49,748 nucleotides of DNA, taken from assembly GCA_017615355.1 (NCBI GenBank), contig JAGAAJ010000139.1:1-49748 (forward strand). The letters are read 5' to 3'. Positions within the stretch are counted from its first letter, which is position 1. Each line of letters begins with the position of its first letter. The position numbers were made by a program, and so were the translations under genes. Shown here piece by piece: positions 11,289 through 30,621 of the stretch. Source of the stretch: Prevotella sp. (GTDB taxonomy: Bacteria > Bacteroidota > Bacteroidia > Bacteroidales > Bacteroidaceae). The notes under the pieces are model-generated. The model worked only from the letters and a program-made list of their open reading frames with translations. It had not been told where the DNA came from and searched no databases.

Positions 11289-11341
11289 GCTGGGTCACCA
11301 GCAAACCCCAGTGTTTCATCTGAACAAAAACAATAACAACC

Positions 11342-11467
11342 CTTTTTGAAAGTTTTGCACTCCGTGCATCCTTCTTCTATTGTCATGAATCTGGTCGGAA
11401 GCACGCTTCCACCATCTTCCTGCCAATAGCAGAACATGTCCTTGCAGACATCAAAACTTTCAAAAAG
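11342..11467 (+). repeat. Left palindromic element
   Basis: 126 bp with perfect 16-bp terminal inverted repeats (CTTTTTGAAAGTTTTG at 11342-11357 and its complement at 11452-11467). Inside are three hairpins: GCAC/GTGC (11357-11367), a long central stem from CTATTG (11377) to CAATAG (11429) capped by GGAAG/CTTCC, and ATGTC/GACAT (11436-11451). Confidence 0.85.
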
Positions 11468-11571
11468 CAAAAACCAGTTTCGCTCTGCTACACTAAAAAA
11501 CTTCGTGGTTGAGTTATCAGAACAATATAATCACATAGCATCCCGTTAAAAAGAAAATCTATAATGCCATT

Positions 11572-12015
11572 ATGACCTACAACATAGCAAAACTTGCAGA
11601 CTTTAATTCAGCCTTAGCTACAGAACTCAAGAACCACTGTTATATAATAGTTGGTTTGTGTCAACAGGTACATCGTGAAATGGGTCCTTTTCTCAACGAA
11701 TATATGTATCAGGAAGCCTTGGATATATCTCTTGAAGAGAATGGCATAGAGAAAGTGAAGGAGTATTATTTCTCCGTGATATATCATGGAAGGCAGATAA
11801 GACACAAGCATTATGCTGATTTCCTCATTAATAATGATATCCTGATTGAGTGCAAAGCTGTTGAGCGACTAGGAACCGAGCATCGTCAGCAACTGTGGAA
11901 CTATATGAGGCTGACAAATATATGCATAGGGATATTATTCAACTTTGCTCCAGTACATGACCAGTGTGAACGTTATTATTTAGACAAGGAAACAGGAAAT
12001 ATGTATATGTTCTAG
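11572..12015 (+). CDS. GxxExxY family protein (PD-(D/E)XK nuclease-like)
   Basis: 147 residues, normal for the GxxExxY family, which is small, often multi-copy and related to PD-(D/E)XK nucleases. The naming motif is partly degenerate: GPFLNEYMYQEAL keeps E43 and Y46, but Phe stands where the Gly of GxxExxY is usual. The nuclease-like core is intact: D83 (YADFLINNDI), E93 and K95 (LIECK), then a helix with EHRQQLWNYM. Cellular role is unknown. The gene is clearly more A/T-rich than its neighbours and sits between inverted palindromic repeats, both signs of acquisition. No Bacteroidetes -7 box was found before it. Confidence 0.88.
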   Translation: MTYNIAKLADFNSALATELKNHCYIIVGLCQQVHREMGPFLNEYMYQEALDISLEENGIEKVKEYYFSVIYHGRQIRHKHYADFLINNDILIECKAVERLGTEHRQQLWNYMRLTNICIGILFNFAPVHDQCERYYLDKETGNMYMF

Positions 12016-12057
12016 CAACGGTAAACTTGACTCTGCTCTCGTTTTTTACTGTTTTTG

Positions 12058-12184
12058 CTTCTTGAAAGTTTTGATATTCGAAAGAATATGTTATGGTGTT
12101 GACAGGAAGATGGTGGAAGAAGTCTTCCAACCAGGTTCCTGACAACAGCAGAACGTAGCACGTAGTGCCAAAACTTTCAAGAAG
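12058..12184 (-). repeat. Right palindromic element, inverted copy
   Basis: 127 bp with perfect 16-bp terminal inverted repeats (CTTCTTGAAAGTTTTG at 12058-12073, complement at 12169-12184). Read on the minus strand it aligns with the left element throughout and has the same three hairpins: GCAC/GTGC (12158-12168), the central stem capped by GGAAG/CTTCC, and ATATTC/GAATAT (12074-12089). Confidence 0.85.
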
Positions 12185-12257
12185 AGTTATTTTTGTTTTT
12201 GTTAAAAACGAAAACACTGGATTATGCAGATGAGCCGATAAGCGTTTGGCTTCTTTT

Positions 12258-30514: not shown

Positions 30515-30521
30515 CAGCCGA

Positions 30522-30601
30522 TATTCAAGGGGTGCCCACGGTTGTGGGCTGAGATGATACCCTCTCACCTGATGCGGACAATACCGACGTAGGGATGGAT
30601 A
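30522..30601 (+). promoter_or_regulatory. TPP riboswitch (THI element)
   Basis: Conserved THI-box segments appear in order: GGGGTGCCC (30529-30537), GCTGAGATGATACCC (30548-30562), ACCTGATGCGGACAAT (30567-30582) and CGTAGGGA (30588-30595). A short P1 helix can form between TATTC (30522-30526) and GGATA (30597-30601). The aptamer begins just after the predicted transcription start and lies about 60 bases before a TonB receptor followed by a PnuC-type transporter, the usual Bacteroidetes thiamine-uptake arrangement. A downstream ACCCCCTTTTT (30614-30624) could pair with AAGGGGT of the aptamer and form part of the expression platform; that part is inferred. Confidence 0.93.
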
Positions 30602-30621
30602 ACGATCACTTGTACCCCCTT

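Follow-up and report, generated by a model that had tools for sequence, protein, structure and literature searches.

Among described systems, those closest to the locus analysed here are the REPIN/RAYT pairs; 93% of 430 REPIN doublets are reported to be inverted, with 71 and 110 bp as the commonest spacings (PMC3116915), and the REP unit measures 20–40 bp (PMC3733652). ERIC, an enterobacterial repeat, is a mobile palindrome of 127 bp, and the author of one account did not know how it moves (PMC2759123). Insertion sequences of the IS200/IS605 kind, which have subterminal hairpins, carry an enzyme gene between hairpin-forming ends (PMC6006769), and integron attC cassettes have a similar repeat–hairpin–repeat look. 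The unit described below would work like REPIN/RAYT and is not a member of it. It is probably a new kind of jumping DNA unit, belonging to a protein family, GxxExxY (TIGR04256), for which the open-licence literature searched describes neither a role nor flanking repeats, a silence that carries little weight; one paper that mentions GxxExxY places such a gene next to a reverse transcriptase, and the name TIGR04256 occurs in none of those searched.

The gene and its inverted flanks

The window (the whole stretch of Prevotella DNA analysed, 49,748 nucleotides, from a genome of 3.25 Mb in 147 contigs) holds at positions 11572–12015 (+) a gene for a GxxExxY/PDDEXK_3 protein of 147 aa. An earlier note, made from the sequence alone, had named it as such, and both family profiles bear this out: PF13366 matches with an E-value of 1.1e-30 (106.8 bits, cut-off 22) and TIGR04256 with 4.3e-30 (104.5 bits, cut-off 35). 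The predicted structure (mean pLDDT 95.5) has a PD-(D/E)XK-type fold and, with its D..ExK motif intact, would place the protein among the PD-(D/E)XK nucleases; D83 and E93-C94-K95 are invariant in 76 aligned clade proteins. A median dN/dS of 0.07 (maximum 0.14, 73 pairs) supports purifying selection on the clade gene, as judged from sequence comparison. A PDB sequence search with the protein returned 0 matches, PADLOC and PHROGs gave weak matches only (best E 0.02 and 0.0061, respectively), and no relatives were found in the viral contigs searched. The family is common, PF13366 being present in 66/100 genomes of the genus and 75/148 of the phylum. A DDE insertion sequence was considered and rejected: there is no DDE transposase, and the single gene matches only PF13366 in Pfam. 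Another GxxExxY gene of this genome (L005, contig C7 of G000) has one upstream copy and four downstream copies of a repeat of ~57 bp, TCTACGGACTAAAAGGAC....

The two flanks are inverted copies of each other, with 79% identity across some 170 bp. The earlier note had put this match at ~160 bp; local alignment of the left flank with the reverse complement of the right shows it to be longer, reaching out to about 11292–12236, with 11292–11316 and 12212–12236 as the outermost inverted pair and a left/right match of 76% in the outer stretch with CCAGTGTTT. These edges, set by flank alignment and not by an empty site, delimit what is probably a mobile unit. Within it lie two elements of ~165 bp that we refer to as cloverleafs, each with A-rich outer and inner repeats: the left at 11322–11486 (+; covariance model R2, 111.2 bits, E 1e-25) and the right, its inverted copy, at 12038–12204 (−; R2, 110.6 bits, E 1.5e-25), both of which were also among the sequences of the model. 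Their palindromic cores, of 126 bp at 11342–11467 (+) and 127 bp at 12058–12184 (−), have perfect 16-bp ends, exactly as first noted. The A-rich strip reported outside each core is likewise present (AACAAAAACAATAACAACC at 11323–11341, +; AACAAAAACAAAAATAACT, read on the − strand, at 12185–12203), and a second one lies on the inner side. What had been called a palindrome keeps its inverted symmetry and folds not as a simple hairpin but with four arms.

Scanning the whole 3.25-Mb genome with the covariance model gave four elements, the two in the window and a second, convergent pair without a gene on contig C14. An Rfam scan of the window gave no match at gathering score over the elements; its sole match is a TPP riboswitch at 30518–30612 (+; 63.9 bits).

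Fold and distribution of the element

Protein relatives were taken as the best 80 of 119 loci (L014–L093; 54–90% identity), mostly from rumen or gut Bacteroidales, and many of these have palindromes of 122–134 bp near the gene despite differing sequence. Core lengths span about 114–140 bp, mostly 121–134. Borders are shared among 40 palindromes, with an outer A-rich strip (approximately ACAAAAACMNNNAAAACC) before the core and an inner one (CAAAAACM...AAAAAC) after it. As there is an A-rich strip on both sides, each core lies between direct A-rich repeats.

Folded singly, many of 59 elements are four-armed and some fold otherwise. The cloverleaf has an outer stem of ~15 bp, inside which a long central hairpin, bearing a short apical stem, stands between two small hairpins. 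A first covariance model (R1), from RNAalifold on a MAFFT alignment, was abandoned with only six apical pairs, owing to misaligned arms. Its successor R2 carries the four-armed structure, averaged from single-sequence folds, on 42 sequences including the two of the window; with a structure of this origin and an alignment (A2) fitted to it, pair counts on that alignment lean towards the structure, and slid and shuffled controls were used as a guard against this bias. Searching with R2 gave 207 matches at E ≤ 0.01 in 89 sources.

The covariation test covered 143 distinct aligned elements, 500 shuffles and slid versions of the structure. Paired cells make up 71.7% (46.6% shuffled), double-changed cells number 2157 (880 shuffled) and the covariation score is 0.538 (0.174 shuffled, at most 0.163 slid), all three lying above every shuffle and every slid version. 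The other two of the five do not rise above the shuffles, which often reach the observed value (66/500 for the number of pairs with a double change, 152/500 for further pair types). The fold is conserved: arm sequence varies and pairing is kept. G–U pairs are rare in 54 elements (59/2513 read on the + strand, 113/2581 on the − strand), almost all pairs being Watson–Crick, and single mismatches on the A-rich strand of these elements are pyrimidine–pyrimidine in 121/152 cases. The scarcity of G–U and the mismatch bias fit a constraint on DNA, on one strand, better than plain RNA.

Elements and gene are linked. R2 elements lie beside the gene at 74 of the 75 loci that have more than 400 bp of sequence on both sides (another five, truncated at contig ends, were excluded): on both sides at 59, upstream only at 9, downstream only at 6 and at neither in one. 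This tally leaves out 11 weak matches, two of them in the single negative locus, and most of the elements behind R2 came from these loci themselves. A model-free scan of the 80 loci agrees: of 40 palindromes measuring 110–140 bp, 37 are no more than 600 bp away from the gene, an enrichment in relatives that the earlier note had named as a check on its reading. Density falls from 157 elements in 93 kb (within 600 bp of the gene) to 24 in 335 kb further off, across the 80 loci. Orientation is equally regular, the nearest upstream element being + in 66/70 and the nearest downstream − in 59/68; consecutive elements in the protein loci run + − 77 times, − + 14 times, + + 12 times and − − 8 times. 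No full element was found at L057. Cloverleafs and a GxxExxY gene of Bacteroidales type also occur on a contig titled Lachnospiraceae (L048), which is perhaps mis-binned.

Across 100 genomes of the genus, searched with a profile of 76 clade proteins at a threshold of at least 220 bits, elements occur in 8/8 genomes with the clade gene and 8/92 others (Fisher 7e-8), a test that is not independent because seven of the eight gene-bearing genomes (all but G002) supplied model sequences. The next protein group (185–195 bits, four genomes) has none of the cloverleafs.

At least 125 elements are listed in these 16 positive genomes, from one to 25 or more in each; the counts are lower bounds, at most 28 candidates having been scored per genome, and the highest are at least 24 (G096) and at least 25 (G098). 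Among the 125 listed elements, 33 of 36 adjacent pairs within 1.5 kb are convergent, G002 contributing two near pairs, one convergent and one − −, and 56 elements have no listed neighbour within 1.5 kb. By spacing, 32 of the convergent pairs comprise 25 at 28–149 bp, four around the clade gene at 474–588 bp and three with gene-less gaps of 230, 234 and 978 bp. The last of these, at G037:C34:393-1369, has one of the convergent cloverleafs at either end and no recognised GxxExxY gene within it. Doublets of one genome mostly have unlike outer flanks. In G044 the gene has a doublet on each side and is not itself enclosed by one, and G008 has, besides two full elements, four weak partial matches (model positions 25–145), possibly from a different element family.

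The likeness to REPIN/RAYT proposed in the earlier note holds in layout and fails on the enzyme. One enzyme gene is flanked by its own hairpin repeats (59/75 on both sides, 74/75 on at least one) and short-spaced, gene-less inverted doublets lie elsewhere in the genome, as described for REPINs (PMC3116915). However, the gene matches only PF13366 and not a tyrosine (HUH, Y1) transposase, there are fewer copies per genome, and a cloverleaf of ~126 bp between A-rich repeats takes the place of a 20–40-bp REP (PMC3733652) with a GTAG/CGTC-type tag, a difference judged by length only. Palindromic, intergenic, gene-less, probably mobile and of near-equal length, the elements also resemble ERIC and bacterial MITEs (PMC2759123), yet they are paired in inverted doublets, their arm sequence is free to vary and a candidate enzyme is attached. 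The IS200/IS605 enzyme has another fold, and the ends in the window's clade are inverted, four-armed copies; unlike the repeats of attC cassettes, they stand in inverted and not direct order.

Repeats beside other GxxExxY clades

Ten loci of other clades yielded no full cloverleaf (six without a match, four with 19–30 bits only). Repeats of another kind are nonetheless frequent: the two 300-bp flanks share one in 44/49 GxxExxY genes from within the genus (a fiftieth had too short a flank) and in 19/30 of other Bacteroidota families, the genes tested being well-scoring ones and not a random draw. Controls show shared repeats at 5/48 genes and 9/400 random gaps; the gene control was 13/74 with GxxExxY loci included and 5/48 without them, and at least two of the five lie near extra cloverleafs. 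A more stringent motif finder, with which most loci dropped out, was replaced. Eight plasmid GxxExxY records were found, and four of seven have a shared flank repeat at E ≤ 0.01.

Flank repeats differ by clade. By eye, a CACAGAG/CGCAGAGG-type motif recurs inverted across phyla, in Gemmatirosa (L307), Bernardetia (L308) and Bacteroides (L311), and the flanks of other clades have a suggestive period of 9 bp (z 8.1 at lag 9), set against a control that is largely coding DNA with a 3-bp period of its own. Shared flank repeats also accompany six of six further genes, of which four are near relatives of the clade; in these four the repeats are inverted and, by eye, A-rich. On this comparison the A-rich array would be the older and the cloverleaf a later arrival in it. 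On a Sphingomonas plasmid (L306), the gene sits between fabD and fabG at spacings of 33 and 2 bp, with a CGCGAAGG-type repeat upstream only. Three near-clade genes (L314, L315, L316) lie, by eye, in the same gap between the same two genes, which resemble what we take to be the two subunits of indolepyruvate oxidoreductase.

Evidence for movement and a proposed explanation

Comparison of relatives, mostly as metagenome assemblies, supports mobility of the unit. L025 and L022 carry it at an orthologous site at which G256 (L197) has the flanks directly joined and the unit absent; ACTTCGT occurs once in this empty site and borders the insert at either end in L025, the right copy in L022 having one mismatch. 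A relative's whole unit thus has a precise empty site, the comparison that the earlier note had put forward as a second check. The doublet L140 of G098 is absent at the matching site in G193, G256 and G371, the last having a short unrelated insert there, and its ends carry diverged direct copies of ~25 bp of the target. The unit also recurs within single assemblies: L053 and L061, from one, share 93% over 1001 bp in different surroundings, and L026 and L027, from another, are nearly identical inside less similar flanks. For the window's own copy no empty site was found with homologues of the upstream 755-aa gene (102/398 genomes), the 29 such loci read besides the window's having no DUF3575 gene in the ~0.4–1.5 kb downstream.

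The two empty sites differ in duplication (7 bp versus ~25 bp) and, unlike MITEs, show no TA duplication (ACTTCGT; the ~25-bp repeat). Across 81 flank pairs, 12 share a 7-mer where mismatched flanks predict 9.6; direct repeats being no commoner than expected, these counts do not make target duplication a general feature. Beyond the A-rich strip, a conserved terminal motif of CACC type was sought and rejected (30/186 against 22 expected), and no excision product was seen. Between L022 and L025, gene and outer flanks are the same and the cores on both sides are swapped between A-rich motifs. At this locus L075 has a GxxExxY gene in the opposite direction, which is a different one; of the cassette able to move or invert that had been suggested, movement is borne out in relatives and inversion is not. 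Taken as a whole, the interpretation in the earlier note is supported.

The explanation that we favour, with moderate confidence, is a single-gene mobile element, like REPIN/RAYT in its working, with a PD-(D/E)XK nuclease acting on folded ends. These ends would be the two inverted copies, each able, as a cruciform or in single-stranded form, to take up a cloverleaf fold around a four-way junction. The nuclease, GxxExxY, would recognise the folded end or the surrounding A-rich repeats and nick or cut there. In this way the unit could be copied or moved to intergenic positions, with the last steps left to host repair; the gene-less inverted doublets would be the non-autonomous form, moved in trans. 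We infer that movement is driven by GxxExxY, whose substrate would be the cloverleaf, and that the enzyme works on DNA and not on RNA. The core swap between L022 and L025 is not accounted for by simple transposition.

Doublets could instead be MITE-like and moved by an unrelated enzyme, GxxExxY being a passenger or a repair or maintenance nuclease that tolerates or resolves palindromes. Another mover is possible since elements occur in eight of 92 genomes without the clade gene, and the core exchange at L022/L025 is independent of the gene; 22/25 listed elements in G098 and 22/24 in G096 do not lie beside it. Yet gene-bearing genomes hold 102 of the 125 listed elements, doublet spacers below 150 bp are too short to hold a further gene (the three gaps of 230, 234 and 978 bp are longer), and the different repeats that other GxxExxY clades have of their own are hard to reconcile with a passenger. 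We regard an unrelated mover as unlikely, though as deserving weight.

A homing-type selfish gene, whose nuclease would cut at or near the repeats so that host recombination and gene conversion copy the unit and no transposition takes place, appears decidedly improbable. It would accommodate the nearly identical unit of L026 and L027 inside less similar flanks, the replacement of cores between conserved A-rich motifs and the GxxExxY genes fitted tightly between conserved genes (fabD/fabG on the Sphingomonas plasmid; L314–L316 by eye), but the two insertions have unlike target sites and so, mostly, do the doublets of one genome in their outer flanks. That the elements are structured RNAs, or terminators or regulators of the nuclease gene, is very hard to credit, for all their strong fold and nearly fixed position and orientation around it, against the few G–U pairs, the existence of gene-less doublets and empty sites and the lack of an Rfam match at gathering score for the elements of the window.

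The element proposed above, moved by its own GxxExxY nuclease, can be read together with the other clades. On this wider reading, to which we give slightly less than an even chance, GxxExxY proteins across bacteria would be repeat-associated nucleases, the PD-(D/E)XK counterpart of the RAYTs: each clade would have its own short-period, often inverted repeats (of CACAGAG/CGCAGAGG type in several phyla, A-rich in Prevotella), and would seed copies over the genome, and in the window's clade a DNA cloverleaf with a four-way junction, inside an A-rich array, would serve as the transposon end. The link between GxxExxY and repeats gives the family a testable role and points to a possible source of short repeats in these genomes. 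If true, it would add a class of mobile DNA in which a PD-(D/E)XK nuclease is the sole protein and works on a DNA end folded into a four-way shape.
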